This document shows, one piece after another, positions 3,860 through 55,745 of a stretch of 64,000 nt of DNA. A model generated the notes under the pieces. That model saw only the letters and a list, made by a program, of their open reading frames with translations. It did no database searches and was not told where the DNA came from. The position numbers and the translations under genes were made by a program. The DNA is taken from positions 29,353-93,352 of the IMG/VR virus record IMGVR_UViG_3300026521_000463. The stretch is one strand, 5' to 3'. Position 1 is the first letter of the stretch. Every line of letters begins with the position of its first letter. This stretch comes from a virus.

Positions 3860-4269
3860 TTTTGTTCCTTTAAATTCGCAAAAATATCTTTAAGCATTGA
3901 ACTTGCTTTTTTCATATCAATATCTTGTCTTCCTTTTAACTCTTTCATACACTCTCCAAAATTTTTACCACTTGAAACCAAATCGTGCAGAATAGTCGTC
4001 AATTCGGCATCTGATAATTGTTTAGGTAAAATATCATCTGCTAATTTCTTTAGAAAATTTAATTCATTTTCAGCATCTACCCCATTTTTGATTGAGTCTT
4101 CAACTTGTTTGATAGACTTTTTTAATCCGTCAATAATAAATAAATCTGGATTTGGGTCCTTTGGGTTTTTATCTTTTGCTAATTTTTCTATCGTGTCAAT
4201 TAACATCATAATATAATTTTTATTTTCTTTATCTTTCATTCTCATAATTTTTAATTCTTTAAAAGTCAT
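3856..4269 (-). CDS. GatB/YqeY-like protein
   Basis: This 137-residue helical protein has the hallmark of the YqeY family: a long charged helical region, then DDILPKQLSDAELTTILHDLV (compare AYLPKQLSEEEI in YqeY), a Gly/Lys-containing FGECMKELKGR segment, and a final helix. YqeY proteins resemble the C-terminal tRNA-binding region of GatB amidotransferase, and their biochemical role is unsettled. Phage copies exist, but their function is unknown to me. It lies in a tight operon and overlaps the next gene by four bases. Confidence 0.65.
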   Translation of the reverse strand: MTFKELKIMRMKDKENKNYIMMLIDTIEKLAKDKNPKDPNPDLFIIDGLKKSIKQVEDSIKNGVDAENELNFLKKLADDILPKQLSDAELTTILHDLVSSGKNFGECMKELKGRQDIDMKKASSMLKDIFANLKEQK

Positions 4270-4282
4270 TTTCTTCTCCTTT

Positions 4283-29294: not shown

Positions 29295-29882
29295 TTAAAA
29301 TTCACTTGTATTTTTTTCTTGTGCTTTTTTTCTTTTTGTTTGAGCAATCATTTGAAGTATTTCATCAAGATTTTCCTCATCATAATCTTCAATTTCTTCA
29401 TTTTTTTCAACTTCGCTTTTAGTATGTAATGCTTTAAGTGTCATTTCAATGCTATCCATATCAATTTTTTCTTGAATTTTCATAAGCATATCTTCTGTTC
29501 TTTCAAATAAGATTCTCGTTGATTGGTAAAGTTGTAACATCTCACCTGTTTCAAGTTTATCTATCATTCTATCGTCAAATAATTTATCTTCTAATTTTGA
29601 TAAATAATCTTCAAGAACATTTAGTTTTGCGCTTAACTTTTTAGCAAGTTGAATCAATTGAAGTGAAACTCCTAATCCTGATAATTTAACTCTTTTAATA
29701 AAATCCTTATCAGGAATTTTACCTTTAAAAAGTAGTTCTTCAACAATCGCATCATCTTCCTTAGTAAGAAGATTTAACGATTTAAAAGTATCTTGGGTTT
29801 CATATTTTTCTTCTTCAAAATTACTTAACTCATCGAAAAAGTTTTCTTCGATGACTTCTGCTTTAATAACATCATTAGACAT
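29295..29882 (-). CDS. Hypothetical helical protein (195 aa)
   Basis: This acidic, all-helical 195-residue protein has a coiled-coil centre (LAKKLSAKLNVLEDYLSKLEDKL) and a basic C-terminal stretch (QTKRKKAQEK). The size and plan would fit a small terminase or scaffold-type protein, but nothing specific supports that. It follows the topoisomerase gene by about 35 bases. Confidence 0.65.
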   Translation of the reverse strand: MSNDVIKAEVIEENFFDELSNFEEEKYETQDTFKSLNLLTKEDDAIVEELLFKGKIPDKDFIKRVKLSGLGVSLQLIQLAKKLSAKLNVLEDYLSKLEDKLFDDRMIDKLETGEMLQLYQSTRILFERTEDMLMKIQEKIDMDSIEMTLKALHTKSEVEKNEEIEDYDEENLDEILQMIAQTKRKKAQEKNTSEF

Positions 29883-49784: not shown

Positions 49785-51236
49785 TTACTCCTCGTCTTCG
49801 CCTTCGTTTTCATCAACGACAAACATAGGTTCCCCAAATAATTTTTCAAAAGATTTATTGTAATACTTAACTAATGCTTTTTGATTAACTTTTACACCTA
49901 ATTCTTCTGCTTCATCGGCAATATCACCTACAAAAGATTTGATTGTGTCCATCATATCAATTGTCATAGATAAGTATTCAACTTTTTCTAAATCGTTAAG
50001 ATTTACTACATTTAAGAATTGAATATCAATATGTCTGATAGAAATATCGTGTCCTTGATTTTTCAAGTGTATTAAAAAAAGTTGCTGTAATGAATTTATT
50101 AACCCTGTTTGAAATGTTTTTAATTTTTTTGAATATCTTACACTATTTTGAATAATATCCATTCTTCCTGCTGAGTTATTGAATATATCTTCAGGATATC
50201 CGTTTGTAGTTAAAATTACATTTCTTAAATCTTCAATTTTTGTAAATAAATCTTCTAAATCTTCATAAACACCATATTCTTGTTTTTCAAGTTGCCCTTT
50301 ATCTCCCCAACTTGGGACAACCTTAACATTGTTTGTATTTTCTAAAATACTATTTAAGGTATCTTTTATATTTTCAAAATCAAATTCAACTTTATTAAGT
50401 GATTTATTTACCAATTTTTCATAACTTTTAGCAATGTTTATTGCTTCTTCAGGACTAACTGAATCAGGTATTGACACACCTAAAACATTTTGTTTAGTTG
50501 CTTTTTTAAGAAGATTGATATAAACTAAACCTTCTAATAAATATAATGTCCTTAACAATTCAATTACAGGATTTAGAATACCTTGCCCTGTTTTGAAATA
50601 AACTGCTTCCTCATCGTTTAATTCAACTTTTACTTTCTTTCTTGAAGTTGAAAAACCAAAAAATACATATTTATAAGCAGGTTCTTTATAAATTTTATTA
50701 TCTTTTATAACATTATAATATAAAACTTGATTATCTCGCCATATCGGAATTATTTTAGTAGGGTCTGTGTCGTCGTGAATGTTTATAATACCTTTTAAGA
50801 CTTTATCACTATCTATTGTTTCAACATCAAGTCTAAGGTAATGAGAACCATATGCTAAAATATCAGGTGCTATATCTATTAAAAGTTTTTCTATATTAAA
50901 ATTTTTTTTAAAAAGATTTGCTTCTTTTGTAGCAACTTCATTTACTGTATCGTCTTCATTTTTAATAGTTACCTTAAAAATTTCATTTTCACTACCCACA
51001 GGATTTAAAGCATCATCAATAATTCTGCTTATCATCATTTGTGAAAGATAAAAATCTTTCAATTCTGAAAGAAGTTTATGGGTTTTAACTAAATCATCTC
51101 TTGTAGATAAAAGTGCTAAATTAACTTTTTTCTGTGAATCTGATTCATTACTATTAACATAATCGCCTGTGGCAGGGTCTTTTTTTGTATTCATCCAATA
51201 GAATAATTTTTGTGCTGCTTTATTCCACATACTCAT
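49785..51236 (-). CDS. Portal vertex protein (T4 gp20-like)
   Basis: The 483 residues (T4 gp20 is 524) show the T4-type portal series: MMISRIIDDALNPVGSE, PDILAYGSHYLRLDVE, KYVFFGFSTSRKK (clip region), GQGILNPVIELLRTLYLLEGLVYINLLKKA (long stem helix), DKGQLEKQEYGVYEDLEDLFTKIEDL broken by a turn, and NGYPEDIFNNSAGRMDIIQNSVRYSKK. The acidic C-terminus ends EGEDEE. It forms the dodecameric DNA entry ring that receives the terminase. A TTAAATAA element and SD GAGGAG precede it. Confidence 0.92.
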   Translation of the reverse strand: MSMWNKAAQKLFYWMNTKKDPATGDYVNSNESDSQKKVNLALLSTRDDLVKTHKLLSELKDFYLSQMMISRIIDDALNPVGSENEIFKVTIKNEDDTVNEVATKEANLFKKNFNIEKLLIDIAPDILAYGSHYLRLDVETIDSDKVLKGIINIHDDTDPTKIIPIWRDNQVLYYNVIKDNKIYKEPAYKYVFFGFSTSRKKVKVELNDEEAVYFKTGQGILNPVIELLRTLYLLEGLVYINLLKKATKQNVLGVSIPDSVSPEEAINIAKSYEKLVNKSLNKVEFDFENIKDTLNSILENTNNVKVVPSWGDKGQLEKQEYGVYEDLEDLFTKIEDLRNVILTTNGYPEDIFNNSAGRMDIIQNSVRYSKKLKTFQTGLINSLQQLFLIHLKNQGHDISIRHIDIQFLNVVNLNDLEKVEYLSMTIDMMDTIKSFVGDIADEAEELGVKVNQKALVKYYNKSFEKLFGEPMFVVDENEGEDEE

Positions 51237-51256
51237 CTTCTGCTCCTCTTTTAAAT

Positions 51257-51264
51257 TTATTTAA
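51257..51264 (-). promoter_or_regulatory. TTAAATAA element before the portal gene (possible late promoter)
   Basis: On the minus strand TTAAATAAATTTAAAAG (51264-51248) is identical to the sequence before the gp4-like gene and the 68-aa gene. It lies just before GAGGAGCAGAAGATG. Confidence 0.45.
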
Positions 51265-51265
51265 T

Positions 51266-53278
51266 TTAATTTTCAAGATAATCAATTGTAATTCCTCCTC
51301 TTGAAGTTATTGCATCGTATAAATCATCACCTGAACTTACACCTGATTTTATTTTCAATTCTTTTACAAAGTTATTATCCTCTAATTTATCATATTTAAT
51401 TTGATTGAAGTTATAAATAGCATTAGCAATAGGGTCTGTTAAATCTTTTGACACATTTAAATCTCTTTCTTTTAAAACAGGAACATTACTTTTAACACCT
51501 TCAAGGTGGTCTATTTTTTTCTCATTTTCAATTAAGCAACTTATTTCTTCTTTTAAAATCATATTATTTGGAAGTTTTACTCTTCCTTCTTCAATAGCAT
51601 ATCTAAAAGCATAATAAGGTTTTTTGTTTTTATCAACTGATGATTCTTTTATATTAAACCCGTCTTGTTCTAAAATTTGAATAGTATCAACAGATTGATA
51701 ACCATCCGTAACAATCAACTCAATTTTAAATCCTATTCTTCTTAAATCTCTTATAAAATCTCTTATTTTTTCAAGTCTTATTTTTTCACCTGGGTTGTCA
51801 GGCATAAAGGCAATAACAAGGTCTGCCCAATATACAAAATCTTCATAAGTTGAAATTTTACCATCTCTAAATCTATCAACTTTTTTCTCAGAAACTCTGT
51901 GCAACATTGCTATACCTAATCTATCTCTATTTAAACCTATATCAATCGCAAGAATTCTTTTTTTATCTAATCCAAATTGGGTTAGTTTTTTAATATCAAA
52001 ATGGTCTATAATCCTGTCAGAAACATCATTTGTTATTTTCATATAATCTTTATCATATGTTTTTGTCAATGATAATGTCTTATTTATAAGACTTTTGTCT
52101 TTTAAAAATGATTTTGAATTTATAGTAGGTTTTCCTAAAACATCTTGGATACCTGTAATAACACTATTTTTAAATTCTTGTAAATGTTCTATAGGAACTT
52201 TATAAATTTTTGAAGGGTCTATTTCCATTGCCTTATTAAAGTCTTCATCAGTATGAATTATAAATGGGTCGGCATCATATGTTCCTATAAAAACTTGAAA
52301 AGTGTCCCCAGAATAATCTATTTTATGTTTTAAAACTTCAAATCTTGCGGGATTTACAAATTCAACACCAGATAAATCACCTTCAAAATTTTCTTTTAAT
52401 TGTTCAGTTAAAGAACCATCTGTTTGAGCAGATGAAATAATATAATAATGACAGGGCCAAGTATTTCCTTTTAATAGAAACCTTGAATTGATTCTGTTTA
52501 TCATTTCAGTAACCAATTCCATAGAACCACCCTTGACAACTTCCTGATTTATCTCATCAGAAACTGCGGCAATTACATCTCTACCGACTAATTGTCTTTT
52601 TCTTGAAACTGTTTTAATATCTAAACCTTTTTGAAATAAAGTTCTACCTGACTTATCAAAATGTTCCACAAAAAACGGACTTTCTCTGATGATTGCCATC
52701 ATCGGGTCAAAATTTATACTCTCTGCTGCTTCTAATGAAGAATTTGTAAGCATATAGATAATTTTTGTGGTATTAGGTAAATTAAATGCTGCCTGAGGGT
52801 TTTTTAGATGTAAAATTCTACAAATATCATATAATAAAGCATAAGTTGAAATTTTTGTATTATGATGAATTTCCCCATTAGGTGTGAGATAAAGATTAGG
52901 TCTGTCAATGTTTATATCATAAACTATTTCTTCATCATTTAATTTTTCTTTTTTAACAATTTCTATATTTTCAATTTCGTTTTTATCATTTATAACATCT
53001 ATAGATTCGGCGTCAATTGCTGAAATTTTTTTATTATTAGATATAATAGAGTGATTTTTAGACACCTTTAAGGTATTACCATTCGCAAGTATCAATTCAA
53101 TAGTTTCATCTTTTTTAGTAACTAAAAAATTTATTTTACTTTTACCTGAAGGAGTTTTTATAAACATTTCAACAGGAGGTAAATGAGCAAATCCGTTTTT
53201 ATTAAAATAATCATTATTTATATGTGCTATTTGAAATTTTTGGAATAATTTACCTATAGGAATTCTTATTTTCTTCAA
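51266..53278 (-). CDS. Large terminase, C-terminal cistron: intein C-fragment + ATPase/nuclease (T4 gp17-like)
   Basis: Residues 1-140 are an intein C-fragment: IPIGKLF, MFIKTPSGKSKINFLV, NGNTLKVSKNHSI (block B-like), EEIVYDINIDRPNLYL and the terminal NGEIHHN. Thr141 begins the terminase body with TKISTYALLYDI. It continues with VIAAVSDEIN (Walker B, catalytic Glu), YYIISSAQTDGSL (coupling region), IDIGLNRDRLGIAM (first nuclease Asp), VTDGYQSVDTIQILE and DLTDPIANAIYNF. Walker A is on the other cistron. The start is TTG 53278 with AAGGAG five bases away, in a hairpin. Splicing to the 79-residue N-extein gives 609 residues, close to T4 gp17 (610). Confidence 0.95.
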   Translation of the reverse strand: MKKIRIPIGKLFQKFQIAHINNDYFNKNGFAHLPPVEMFIKTPSGKSKINFLVTKKDETIELILANGNTLKVSKNHSIISNNKKISAIDAESIDVINDKNEIENIEIVKKEKLNDEEIVYDINIDRPNLYLTPNGEIHHNTKISTYALLYDICRILHLKNPQAAFNLPNTTKIIYMLTNSSLEAAESINFDPMMAIIRESPFFVEHFDKSGRTLFQKGLDIKTVSRKRQLVGRDVIAAVSDEINQEVVKGGSMELVTEMINRINSRFLLKGNTWPCHYYIISSAQTDGSLTEQLKENFEGDLSGVEFVNPARFEVLKHKIDYSGDTFQVFIGTYDADPFIIHTDEDFNKAMEIDPSKIYKVPIEHLQEFKNSVITGIQDVLGKPTINSKSFLKDKSLINKTLSLTKTYDKDYMKITNDVSDRIIDHFDIKKLTQFGLDKKRILAIDIGLNRDRLGIAMLHRVSEKKVDRFRDGKISTYEDFVYWADLVIAFMPDNPGEKIRLEKIRDFIRDLRRIGFKIELIVTDGYQSVDTIQILEQDGFNIKESSVDKNKKPYYAFRYAIEEGRVKLPNNMILKEEISCLIENEKKIDHLEGVKSNVPVLKERDLNVSKDLTDPIANAIYNFNQIKYDKLEDNNFVKELKIKSGVSSGDDLYDAITSRGGITIDYLEN
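52859..53278 (-). other. Split intein C-fragment (Int-C, 140 aa) in large terminase
   Basis: This is the coding region of residues 1-140 of the C-terminal terminase cistron. It ends His-His-Asn140, followed by Thr141 (codon 52858-52856), the expected penultimate His, cyclising Asn and +1 hydroxyl nucleophile. The C-terminal part matches the family pattern YD-x-x-x-x-x-x-LY-x-(T)-NG-x-x-(S/H)HN. It contains no endonuclease domain. Confidence 0.92.
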
Positions 53279-53299
53279 AAATACTCCTTGTTTTTGAAG
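53273..53299 (-). promoter_or_regulatory. Hairpin around the ribosome site of the C-terminal terminase cistron
   Basis: CTTCAAAAA / TTTTTGAAG (9-bp arms) encloses a 9-base loop holding the AAGGAG ribosome site. The TTG start codon lies in the downstream arm. This could set the translation level of the C-half relative to the N-half. Confidence 0.6.
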
Positions 53300-53313
53300 T
53301 ATTTAATTTCCTA

Positions 53314-53339
53314 AGGTTTAAATGAATTCTCCTAAACCT
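53314..53339 (-). repeat. Hairpin at the end of the 211-aa gene
   Basis: AGGTTTA / TAAACCT (7-bp arms, 12-base loop) includes the stop codon at 53318-53320. It is weaker than the other stop-codon hairpins. Confidence 0.45.
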
Positions 53340-53953
53340 CTTTTTGCTGTTCTAACTTCAATTATAGGTTTTTTATCAATCGGATTTAATGATAATAAAG
53401 GTTTTATAAATTTTTTAAATGCTACTAAAATATCACTCATAACATTTTCATCAATTTTAGGATTTAATAAGATTATAGTAGTGTTAAAATTACTTCTAAT
53501 TTTCATAATACCTGGTATTCTTATAAATAGTTTATTTAAGTCTAATTTTAATGCTACTTGCTTTTTTATTTTTTTAGCAGTTTCTCTAACCACTTCAAAA
53601 AAAGGTGTAACTTTTATTTCTAATAATTTTTCCATTTTGTCTAAGAAGTATTTTTCAACTTTTTTAATAAAAATTTCAACCTTTGAAGATTTTATTTTTC
53701 CATCAAGAAAATTCATCCACTTGCCTTGTTTGAATATAACAAATTCACCTAATTTTTTAGAATAAAATCTCATCGAAGAATTAAAAACTTCAACCTTAAA
53801 ACCCCATTTTTTAAAAACTTTACTTAGAGTGTCTAAAACAATTTTATAATCATCTTCTATTTTTAATTTATCAAATTTTAACATTTTCATAAGAGTTGTA
53901 TCATCTATTCCTACTTGTTTAGAAAGTATTTTCAACTCATTTAAACCTATCAT
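53318..53953 (-). CDS. Unknown basic protein between the two terminase cistrons (211 aa)
   Basis: This Lys-rich (pI clearly basic) 211-residue protein starts MIGLNELKILSKQVGIDD, has aromatic-basic stretches (FYSKKLGEFVIFKQGKWMNFL), a strand-rich RIPGIMKIRSNFNTTIILLNP and ends RTAKRGLGEFI. I see no GIY-YIG, LAGLIDADG, HNH or other endonuclease motif. In known fractured genes with split inteins, the intervening gene is often a homing endonuclease, so this may be a divergent one or a passenger structural gene. It has its own GTTAATTT-class promoter. Confidence 0.75.
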   Translation of the reverse strand: MIGLNELKILSKQVGIDDTTLMKMLKFDKLKIEDDYKIVLDTLSKVFKKWGFKVEVFNSSMRFYSKKLGEFVIFKQGKWMNFLDGKIKSSKVEIFIKKVEKYFLDKMEKLLEIKVTPFFEVVRETAKKIKKQVALKLDLNKLFIRIPGIMKIRSNFNTTIILLNPKIDENVMSDILVAFKKFIKPLLSLNPIDKKPIIEVRTAKRGLGEFI

Positions 53954-53976
53954 TTTTATTCCTTAATTTTTTTATA

Positions 53977-54005
53977 ATTATACAAAAATAATTTTAGAAA
54001 TTAAC
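53977..54005 (-). promoter_or_regulatory. Putative GTTAAT-class promoter between the terminase halves
   Basis: GTTAAT (54005-54000), 17 bases and TATAAT (53982-53977) within TATAATTATAA. It drives the 211-aa gene and probably the C-terminal terminase cistron independently of the N-terminal one. Confidence 0.55.
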
Positions 54006-54026
54006 CTTTGTATAGTTATAAATGAA

Positions 54027-54049
54027 GAAGATTAAACAATATAATCTTC
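54027..54049 (-). repeat. Hairpin containing the stop of the N-terminal terminase cistron
   Basis: GAAGATTA / TAATCTTC (perfect 8-bp arms, 7-base loop) overlaps the last intein codons and the TAA stop at 54032-54034. Confidence 0.7.
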
Positions 54050-54352
54050 AAGACCAAATCTTTTAATATCTTCTTCACTCATTTCAATTTCAATTTCTTG
54101 TTCTTTTGCAAGACACTTTCCTACACCTGTAGCCCCAGATAAAATAATCATTTTAACATTCGGGTCATATTGATAAAAAGGTGTAGGGAACCATTCTTCA
54201 AGTTTGTTTTTCCAATAGGGGAATACTTTTGTTCCCTTATTTGTTTCTTCACCTAAATAATAAGGATTTTCCAAAAACTCTTTTATAGTTGGTGGAGTTT
54301 TTTCATATCCTAATTGTTTTGCTGCTTTGTCATAAACTTGTTTTAATGACAT
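54032..54352 (-). CDS. Large terminase, N-terminal cistron: N-extein + intein N-fragment
   Basis: The 106 residues consist of the terminase N-terminus (1-79), with PFYQYDPNVKMIILSGATGVGK ending in the Walker A Lys79, and an intein N-fragment (80-106) starting Cys80. The sequence breaks exactly between GK and T of the P-loop, a favoured intein insertion point. On its own the product cannot hydrolyse ATP, because Walker B and the nuclease are on the other cistron. It is coupled to a 72-aa gene upstream and expressed from a promoter at 54603-54632. Confidence 0.93.
   Translation of the reverse strand: MSLKQVYDKAAKQLGYEKTPPTIKEFLENPYYLGEETNKGTKVFPYWKNKLEEWFPTPFYQYDPNVKMIILSGATGVGKCLAKEQEIEIEMSEEDIKRFGLEDYIV
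54035..54115 (-). other. Split intein N-fragment (Int-N, 27 aa) in large terminase
   Basis: The fragment reads CLAKEQEIEIEMSEEDIKRF then GLEDYIV and stop. Cys1 (codon 54115-54113) follows the Walker A Lys. A usual intein N-fragment is about 100 residues. A 27-residue one is the atypical split known from the AceL-TerL intein (25 residues), which is also in a phage large terminase. The assignment rests on this resemblance and the matching C-fragment. Confidence 0.9.
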
Positions 54353-54356
54353 TTAT

Positions 54357-54575
54357 TTATCCTTCCGTAGGTTTATTTCCTTCAACCAATTCATTAGAAA
54401 CACTATCTACAATTTTTCTAATTTCATCCATATTGATGTCTTCGTTGCCACTTTTAATTGCCATTTTAAGAACTGCTTCACATAAAATCATAACATTTAC
54501 AATATCTTTAACTGATGTCTCAGGTGTTTCAATTTTAAGTTGCTCTCCTACTTCAAATACAATTTTTTTACTCAT
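54357..54575 (-). CDS. Hypothetical protein before the terminase gene (72 aa)
   Basis: This acidic 72-residue protein has a helical core (SVKDIVNVMILCEAVLKMAIKSG split by a turn) and an acidic end. The position just before the large terminase suggests a packaging role, but it is far smaller than T4 gp16 and no terminase small-subunit motif is visible. Its stop lies four bases before the terminase ATG. Confidence 0.65.
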   Translation of the reverse strand: MSKKIVFEVGEQLKIETPETSVKDIVNVMILCEAVLKMAIKSGNEDINMDEIRKIVDSVSNELVEGNKPTEG

Positions 54576-54602
54576 TTCAATCCTTTATGTTTTATTTTTA
54601 TA

Positions 54603-54632
54603 ATTATATCAAAAAAATTTAAAAATATCAAC
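54603..54632 (-). promoter_or_regulatory. Putative GTTAAT-class promoter for the terminase N-terminal cistron
   Basis: GTTGAT (54632-54627), 18 bases and TATAAT (54608-54603) within TATAATTATAA. One base departs from the class in the upstream box. Confidence 0.5.
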
Positions 54633-54645
54633 CTTTTTATAAAAA

Positions 54646-55278
54646 TTATAATAAATCATCTTCATCAAATTCAAGTGTTATTTTACTTGATTTTTTAAGT
54701 GAAGGTTCAATAATTTCTTCACCTAAAGCACCTTCAAGAATATCTTCTTTAGGTTCACCCATTAACTCATTTAAAAATTCATCTGTAGAATTATCAGGAT
54801 TAACTTCACTATCATAAACCTCTTCCATATATTCACGATTTAATTCTTTTGAATTTTGTGTATGTATATCACTTTTTGTAATAGGAACGACAATTGCCTT
54901 TGTATAGATGTGCCCATATTCGTCATTATTAGAATATAAGTCAAAAACTCTATATAACTCATCTCCTGCTTCCATTTTGAATACTATCAATGAATTTATA
55001 GGAACATTTGCTAAATCGTCAAAATATATTGCTTTTTCATCTCCGTTTAATTCGTCAAAAAATCCCCCATAATGAGGTTTTGCTCCGTTAAAAACAAAAG
55101 GGGCAAGAAATTTTCCCTGCCAATCAGGTGTGTCATTATAAACTATTTCATCGTCATAACCACCTCTTCCGCTTTCATATTCTTTTGGATAATACATTTC
55201 TCCATCAATTCCGAAGATATTTGATAAAACACTTACAGCAGTTCTTCCTGCTATTCTTAAAGTTGGACTAAATAACAT
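54646..55278 (-). CDS. Possible neck protein (T4 gp14-like, tentative)
   Basis: This 210-residue acidic protein contains EMYYPKEY near the start and NVPINSLIVFKMEAGDELYRVFDLY in the middle. T4 gp14 has a comparable Y-x-PREY box and a P-x(n)-DLIYFPMDNSLFEI strand pair. The C-terminal 60 residues are acidic and disordered, ending EFDEDDLL. The position just before the terminase genes matches T4 genes 13-15. The match is weak. Confidence 0.45.
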   Translation of the reverse strand: MLFSPTLRIAGRTAVSVLSNIFGIDGEMYYPKEYESGRGGYDDEIVYNDTPDWQGKFLAPFVFNGAKPHYGGFFDELNGDEKAIYFDDLANVPINSLIVFKMEAGDELYRVFDLYSNNDEYGHIYTKAIVVPITKSDIHTQNSKELNREYMEEVYDSEVNPDNSTDEFLNELMGEPKEDILEGALGEEIIEPSLKKSSKITLEFDEDDLL

Positions 55279-55289
55279 TTTTAAACACC

Positions 55290-55745
55290 TTAATCAAAAT
55301 TTACAACTTCAATAACGCCAGGACATCCATCAGTTATTTCGTTTTCATCACTAAAATCAACATATAATAAAGGAGTTTTATCAAATGTATAAACAGGGTC
55401 TAAAACTTTATTGAAAAATAATAATGAATTTTCATATAATATATTATCACTAACATTTATTGATTTGCAAGAAGGATAATATACCGAAATATCAATAGGC
55501 ACCTCCATAAATCTATCATAATAATACTTATTTGCTGCTTCAGGAACTGCTGGTAAATCTTCAGAATATTCTAATGGAATTTCATCATCAGGGCAATAAC
55601 TAATAATTCCGTCTCCATCTGCTTCCAAATAAATAATTGTTCTTGAATAAAATGTTTCTTTTAATGCTTCGTTATTTACATAATCTTCAAAAATTTCCAG
55701 AGGTATTTTTTCAACGGATTCATTTATATTTCTAAAAATACCCAT
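55290..55745 (-). CDS. Hypothetical virion-region protein (151 aa)
   Basis: This acidic 151-residue protein is rich in Tyr, Pro and Asp, with short strands (VPIDISVYYPSCKSINVSD) typical of a small structural protein. No family is recognised. It is in a tight run with the gp14-like gene and the 88-aa gene. Confidence 0.65.
   Translation of the reverse strand: MGIFRNINESVEKIPLEIFEDYVNNEALKETFYSRTIIYLEADGDGIISYCPDDEIPLEYSEDLPAVPEAANKYYYDRFMEVPIDISVYYPSCKSINVSDNILYENSLLFFNKVLDPVYTFDKTPLLYVDFSDENEITDGCPGVIEVVNFD

Follow-up and report, generated by a model that had tools for sequence, protein, structure and literature searches.

A phage large terminase gene interrupted within its Walker A motif by a predicted split intein of the S1 type

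The window described here, a stretch of 64,000 nucleotides (nt), is part of the 93,352-base virus record IMGVR_UViG_3300026521_000463 (positions 29,353 to 93,352) and carries, on its minus strand, a phage large terminase (TerL) gene divided between two cistrons by a predicted split intein. The upstream cistron (54352-54032) encodes 106 residues. The first 79 (54116-54352), homologous to the N-termini of annotated phage TerLs, end in SGATGVGK with the Walker A lysine and are followed by 27 residues starting with Cys (CLAKEQEIEIEMSEEDIKRFGLEDYIV; 54035-54115, stop codon 54032-54034). This N-terminal intein fragment (IntN) is conserved in seven other TerL loci. The downstream cistron (53278-51266) has a TTG start and an AAGGAG ribosome-binding site, and it encodes a C-terminal intein fragment (IntC, 140 residues; 52859-53278) that ends in TPNGEIHHN and continues directly into TKISTYALLYDICRIL. 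The latter begins the C-terminal 530 residues of TerL (51266-52858, including the stop codon), the first of which, the +1 Thr, is the Walker A threonine. The stop codon of IntN and the start of IntC are 753 nt apart with another open reading frame (ORF) inside, and the two halves are separate genes.

Joining residues 1-79 to residues 141-670 gives a protein of 79 + 530 = 609 residues and rebuilds the P-loop GATGVGKT. The joined protein aligns without gaps with uninterrupted relatives (L003 and L004, GATGIGK followed by TKISTYALLYDICRILHLKN), which places the break between the Walker A Lys and Thr. Exact excision thus gives a conserved host protein, with a junction register equal to that of ten uninterrupted relatives. 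The same two half-genes with the same junctions occur on another viral contig (L001; 92% identity across the C cistron), so neither a local assembly error nor an artificial frameshift explains the split. Because Pfam PF03237 (Terminase_6N) gave no match to the record, the identification as TerL rests on tblastn matches to annotated TerLs (E 1e-51) and on matches to PHROG_9/2699; by tblastn with the C part, the best annotated matches are TerLs from phages of Rhizobium, Acinetobacter, Vibrio and Thermus. A first-pass annotation of this DNA, made from the letters alone, had proposed these two cistrons and the join of residue 79 to residue 141. All of its coordinates, the junction residues and the 609-residue product are borne out, the latter by the gap-free alignment with intact relatives; a 211-residue ORF between the halves (53953-53318) was missing from its account. 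The match in length to the 610 residues of T4 gp17, to which it had drawn attention, is a coincidence, since the window protein has its Walker A motif at residues 73-80 and its nearest TerLs are those named above, at 27-31% identity. The Walker A motif of T4 gp17 lies near residue 160. The search of the 93-kb record returned one TerL and one intein of the P-loop split type and no more; no second TerL was found in this record, which may be incomplete.

Profiles, modeling and conserved residues all point to an intein. Pfam Intein_splicing matches IntC with E 1e-5, under its curated cut-off, the score of TIGR01445 on IntC is likewise below cut-off, and the Pyrococcus horikoshii RadA intein matches IntC at 5e-4. 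A profile made from 21 family members matches the Npu DnaE, RadA, Cat and gp41-1 inteins with E values of 2e-9 to 2e-4. Searching Pfam with the joined letters of IntN and IntC brought no gain over IntC alone, because IntN is so short; of the two fragments that the first-pass annotation had taken for intein parts, profiles recognize IntC, in Pfam below the cut-off, but not IntN. An AlphaFold2 model of the window IntC, built from eight sequences, has a predicted local distance difference test (pLDDT) score of 72, and every one of the 13 PDB entries that it matches at E ≤ 0.001 is an intein, RadA, gp41-1, Npu DnaE and Cat among them; the HINT fold that the first-pass annotation expected was thus examined on IntC and found in the model. 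The block B His76, the block F Asp121, the penultimate His139 and the terminal Asn140 are invariant in an eight-row IntC alignment. Position 1 is Cys in the window and in 10/10 other aligned N-fragments, and the +1 residue is Thr or Ser throughout the family (IHHN followed by T; in L021, INHN followed by S). Together with recurrence in at least nine other contigs and purifying selection (below), these profile matches, the modeled fold and the catalytic residues support the proposal that the insert is a natural, atypically split intein, which breaks a large terminase within Walker A.

Two genes of this kind might also encode a two-subunit terminase without splicing, in which the intein parts act as dimerization tags only; split enzymes do exist, since a phage ribonucleotide reductase reportedly still works as two peptides after a homing endonuclease divided its gene (cited in PMC10448857). 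Against such an arrangement, the catalytic residues (C1, block B His, Asn and +1 Thr/Ser) are kept family-wide while the rest of the intein has diverged to about 36-48% identity, and the break lies inside the P-loop, which two chain ends are unlikely to form; we consider it very improbable. An interruption at the RNA level, by a group I or group II intron or by RNA trans-splicing, has its precedent in the introns in terminase genes of other phages (ICP1, PMC10448857), but here intein sequence is translated in each half, and its reading frame and that of the terminase run on through the junctions. A search of 50800-55300 for Rfam intron families at E up to 1 found none, the sole match being sroH at E 0.98, far under threshold, and the chance that RNA rather than protein is spliced appears negligible.

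The position of the split could be located with the help of a contiguous relative (L032), whose AlphaFold2 model (pLDDT 95.3) places β2 at residues 7-12, an extra helix at 19-25, β3 at 34-38 and α1 at 39-45. Its best PDB fold matches are inteins, the top one being VidaL (6vgv, 3e-7). Aligned to L032, the break of the window intein falls between residues 31 and 32, directly ahead of β3, and the IPIGKLF segment (β3-α1) is located on the window IntC, whereas in S2 inteins β3-α1 belongs to IntN. CatC aligns to the family profile solely from position 22 onward, so that IPIGKLF lies upstream of the region it shares. AceL-TerL and GOS-TerL are split after α1 and belong to S2, while VidaL and PolB16 are split at S1 (PMC13014065). 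According to the model, the window intein is therefore of the S1 type, split between β2 plus the extra helix and β3. The first-pass annotation had taken AceL-TerL as the model, which is the wrong class: the window intein, whose +1 Thr also differs from the Cys of GOS-TerL, is placed with VidaL and PolB16. It was right that an IPIGKLF segment on the C-fragment is unusual next to AceL; the S1 class went unnamed, and its "distinct member" is a family rather than a singleton.

Relatives were collected by a TerL-based scan and by pattern scans of viral contigs. The element was found at this one codon in nine or more further contigs, and ten or more related ones are without it. IntC is a separate cistron beginning M(K)KI[KR]IPIG or a variant in L001, L005, L015, L021, L022, L023, L039 and L053, and it is also present, cut by contig ends, in L002 and L025. 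IntN halves of 26-32 residues were found in L001, L021, L022, L023, L039, L053 and L118; they share a conserved pattern (C, L, QE.E) and a tail of the form S-E/D-E-D-I...L-E-E/D-Y. Intact P-loops, G[AS]TGIGK followed by T or S, occur in L003, L004, L006, L024, L026, L027, L029, L030 and L031, with a variant in L008/L009, and the junction codon register is identical in all loci compared. The gap between the halves varies from 106 nt without a gene (L053) through 275 nt (L023), 580 nt (L021) and the 753 nt of the window to 2.4-3.4 kb (L001 and L022). A tblastn search of IntC against 50,697 phage records gave no match, so the family is unseen in sequenced phages at that sensitivity; a scan of genome contigs with the TerL alignment also gave no match, and a scan of viral contigs with the N part returned L001 only.

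A family of ORFs of about 92 residues precedes IntC in four loci (L005:922-1206, L015:334-621, L022:5250-5528 and L023:5335-5610). It was not found in ten intein-free records, many of them fragments, so its association with the intein is suggestive only; it is possibly part of the element rather than an ordinary phage gene.

Comparison with L001 gave ratios of nonsynonymous to synonymous substitution (dN/dS) of 0.018 for TerL-N, 0.09 for IntN, 0.11 for IntC, 0.047 for TerL-C and 0.065 for the 211-residue ORF. These values indicate that selection holds the intein even after loss of the endonuclease gene (see below). They also bear on decay, that is, on the intein or the terminase being a pseudogene in the window phage, to which the missing homing-endonuclease gene and the frameshifted TerL-N of L021 might point. 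Every piece is under constraint (0.018-0.11), all frames are open, the cistrons are preceded by ribosome-binding sites and the 93-kb record has no second TerL, all of which makes decay extremely improbable.

Traces of mobility were found among the relatives. L002, with intein, and L003, without it, are 97.6% identical over the TerL C part and 99% identical in the next gene, and 23 of their 38 differences fall within the 170 nt adjoining the insertion site (Fisher 4e-14), a pattern that reads as the flank co-conversion expected from homing. A maximum-likelihood TerL tree requires at least five gains or losses of the intein (four forced by starred branches), a count that cannot separate gain from loss and that comes from a tree in which L039 is a long branch. 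Homing into exactly the ATP-binding loop is, we infer, how the element moves from virus to virus. The P-loop is a well-protected place for a selfish element, because the host gene is rebuilt by a precise excision alone, and its DNA is conserved enough to be usable as a homing target.

Candidates for the homing enzyme lie between the halves. L001 has there a gene of 540 residues that matches the PHROG_3339 homing endonucleases (3e-102), and L022 one of 628 residues, 40% identical to it (PHROG_3339, 1e-93). A third homologue follows the N half in L118. In L039, a 324-residue ORF overlaps both halves; it is an endonuclease candidate only, because its likeness to the endonucleases is limited to its N-terminal part (E 1e-11). 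A PDB search with the endonuclease found no match. Such a gene is absent between the window halves and from the 93-kb record, and it is missing from the intein-bearing L023 and L053 as well. The endonuclease gene of L001 is flanked by two near-identical repeats of about 80 nt, each with the promoter-like TTGTATAATTATAAA. Pairwise alignments show that the window spacer (53954-54031, minus strand; 78 nt), which also contains the promoter-like TTGTATAATTATAAA, corresponds to a single copy of this repeat, its beginning resembling the first repeat of L001 and its end the second. The window thus apparently lost the endonuclease gene by a crossover between the flanking repeats. Motifs of the TATAATTATAAA type are enriched on both strands of the window (38 found against 9.7 expected; for example 53971-53982 and 54597-54608) and are likely a phage promoter element; since they are common in the window, the repeats may be two ordinary promoters used as recombination sites. 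In L022, a 53-residue ORF after the endonuclease gene (4117-4278) closes with MSDEDIEKYELSEYMED, which repeats the tail of IntN, and is probably a scar of the entry of that gene.

Two neighboring ORFs on the minus strand complete the locus. The 211-residue ORF between the halves (53318-53953) belongs to no family and was seen only in the window and in L001 among the loci; the resident 217-residue ORF that precedes the small gene of L003/L004 was considered as its relocated source, and the two have no significant similarity. A 72-residue ORF immediately upstream of TerL-N (54357-54575) occupies the small-terminase position and has no significant family match.

Very probably, then, a naturally split class-1 intein of the S1 type interrupts the Walker A motif of this TerL between Lys and Thr, and the products of the two genes would be trans-spliced. 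TerL(1-79)-IntN, with its 27 intein residues, and IntC-TerL(80-609), with 140, would be translated separately. IntN (β1-β2 plus the helix) would dock on IntC to complete the HINT fold, whereupon Cys1 would attack the Lys79 bond in an acyl shift and the N-extein would be transferred to the +1 Thr. Asn140 would then cyclize, and a final acyl shift would join Lys79 to Thr, releasing a free 609-residue ATPase with an intact P-loop. The break separates two catalytic P-loop residues, and unspliced forms should therefore not hydrolyze ATP. As the P-loop is incomplete in either half before splicing, DNA packaging is expected to require trans-splicing, which we regard as sound given that the 93-kb record, possibly incomplete, showed no second TerL. 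In relatives such as L001 and L022, the free-standing endonuclease would presumably cut the P-loop DNA of intein-free phages, and repair would copy the element in; in the window phage, the endonuclease gene would have been lost while the splicing parts must stay.

Several points weigh against this scheme. The Pfam match to IntC is sub-cutoff, IntN is too short to be recognized alone by any profile, and support for the docking of IntN on IntC comes from their homology to the contiguous copy in L032. Two extra bases in the P-loop codons of L021 (1860-1885) shift its TerL-N frame just ahead of IntN, a sign of damage or of a sequencing error in at least one member of the family as listed. The case for homing comes from sequence patterns in relatives and not from the window copy, and the contig of L002 does not reach the N half. 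With the same trans-splicing, the split might also be regulatory, kept to delay or condition the assembly of the terminase (by temperature, redox state or late timing) and not just left over from a selfish element. Such a role would suit its persistence in three loci that have no endonuclease gene (the window, L023 and L053) and the separate promoter-like element ahead of the unit of the 211-residue ORF and TerL-C, but patchy presence among close relatives fits a mobile element and nothing points to conditional splicing; a regulatory purpose seems unlikely.

Inteins of the same type were also found in the P-loops of other phage ATPases, for which the gene names are our own reading of the sequences. 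Window-type IntC occurs in a clamp-loader-like ATPase (L035, L040, L048, L050, L051, L056 and L060), in RecA-like ATPases (L038, L041, L057 and L058) and in a DnaB-like helicase (L034). Contiguous copies lie in the clamp-loader-like P-loop of L032 (6226-6702, minus strand), L046 and L055, and in L035, L040 and L048 the intein is split at the same place in the same clamp-loader gene, which provides a contiguous/split pair.

Two further groups were noted. Many loci among L068-L128 (for example L070, L086 and L103) form a separate group of phage-encoded ClpA/B-like AAA+ proteins, in which a GxTGVGKC P-loop is followed by a putative N-fragment of 30-40 residues (NKxTGxxxxIxI) and a stop codon; these are apparently split inteins of the S2 kind, and contiguous long forms exist in L097, L098 and L115. 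In L036, L042, L047, L052, L054, L059, L062, L063 and L064, an IntC of about 100 residues ends in TPNGLINHN and is followed by CSFIGSSQTLIDPNVL of a putative T4-type terminase. This group is perhaps of the AceL/GOS type, its likeness to CatC being weak (E 0.27).

Among known natural inteins, VidaL and PolB16 OarG (S1) resemble the window intein in being split after β2 and before β3, with a short IntN (16 and 15 residues, respectively) and a long IntC. The window IntN, in contrast, has 27 residues with a conserved helical tail (SEEDI...LEEY), and its host site is the Walker A motif of TerL. PolB16 has Ser1 and Ser+1, whereas the window family has Cys1 and Thr or Ser at +1, and the sequence similarity of VidaL to the family profile is weak (E 0.02). 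The S2 inteins AceL-TerL, GOS-TerL and the engineered Cat (natural or consensus) are likewise hosted by phage large terminases and have an IntN of 25-37 residues, and homology between CatC and IntC can be detected (E 1e-4; fold match E 7e-4). However, these are split one element later, with IPIGKLF on the N side and not on the C side as in the window, and GOS-TerL has Cys at +1 where the window has Thr. The RadA intein of Pyrococcus horikoshii (4e2t) is the best PDB fold match of the window IntC model; it differs in being contiguous, archaeal and inserted in another host protein.

Genes fractured by a split intein that is accompanied by a free-standing homing endonuclease were reportedly described by Dassa et al. 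in 2009 (cited in PMC10448857 and PMC13014065). L001 and L022 (with L118 on the N side and L039 as a candidate) resemble them in having a broken host gene with an endonuclease gene between its halves. The earlier fractured genes have a canonical split, with an IntN of about 100 residues, but here the endonuclease gene sits at the atypical S1 position, and the window copy has lost it. In Listeria phage LIS04 (L011) and Streptococcus phage GXN1 (L012), a putative split intein also interrupts TerL, with an annotated endonuclease gene between the halves of LIS04. There, unlike in the window, Walker A (GGIGLGKST and GAIGLGKTF) is intact on the N half, the element lies just ahead of the Walker B region (HN followed by CGLLDEVEF) and the split is of the canonical type.

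We consider it somewhat more likely than not that a phage-wide family of inteins seeks out P-loops (those of the large terminase, clamp-loader ATPase, RecA-like ATPase and DnaB-like helicase) and is split at S1 because a free-standing endonuclease gene settled in the β2-β3 loop instead of the usual endonuclease site. On this view, an atypical split would be the fossil trace of an endonuclease that had invaded the HINT fold at a second position, and the window would represent the end stage, in which the endonuclease is gone and the host is addicted to trans-splicing for packaging its DNA. The atypically split intein and the fractured gene are known as kinds; what is new is the P-loop family, the conserved helical tail of IntN and the homing endonuclease at an atypical split, although members may already be in intein catalogues. 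Few natural atypically split inteins have been characterized (AceL, GOS-TerL, VidaL and PolB16), and they are valued as tools for coupling proteins to short synthetic peptides. The present family, with its paired halves, its empty sites, its stages with and without the endonuclease and its contiguous relative, makes the origin of atypical splits directly testable. Annotation pipelines would call such terminases broken or devoid of an ATPase motif. The present locus indicates that an essential virion motor can apparently be stored in two genes and depend on protein trans-splicing.

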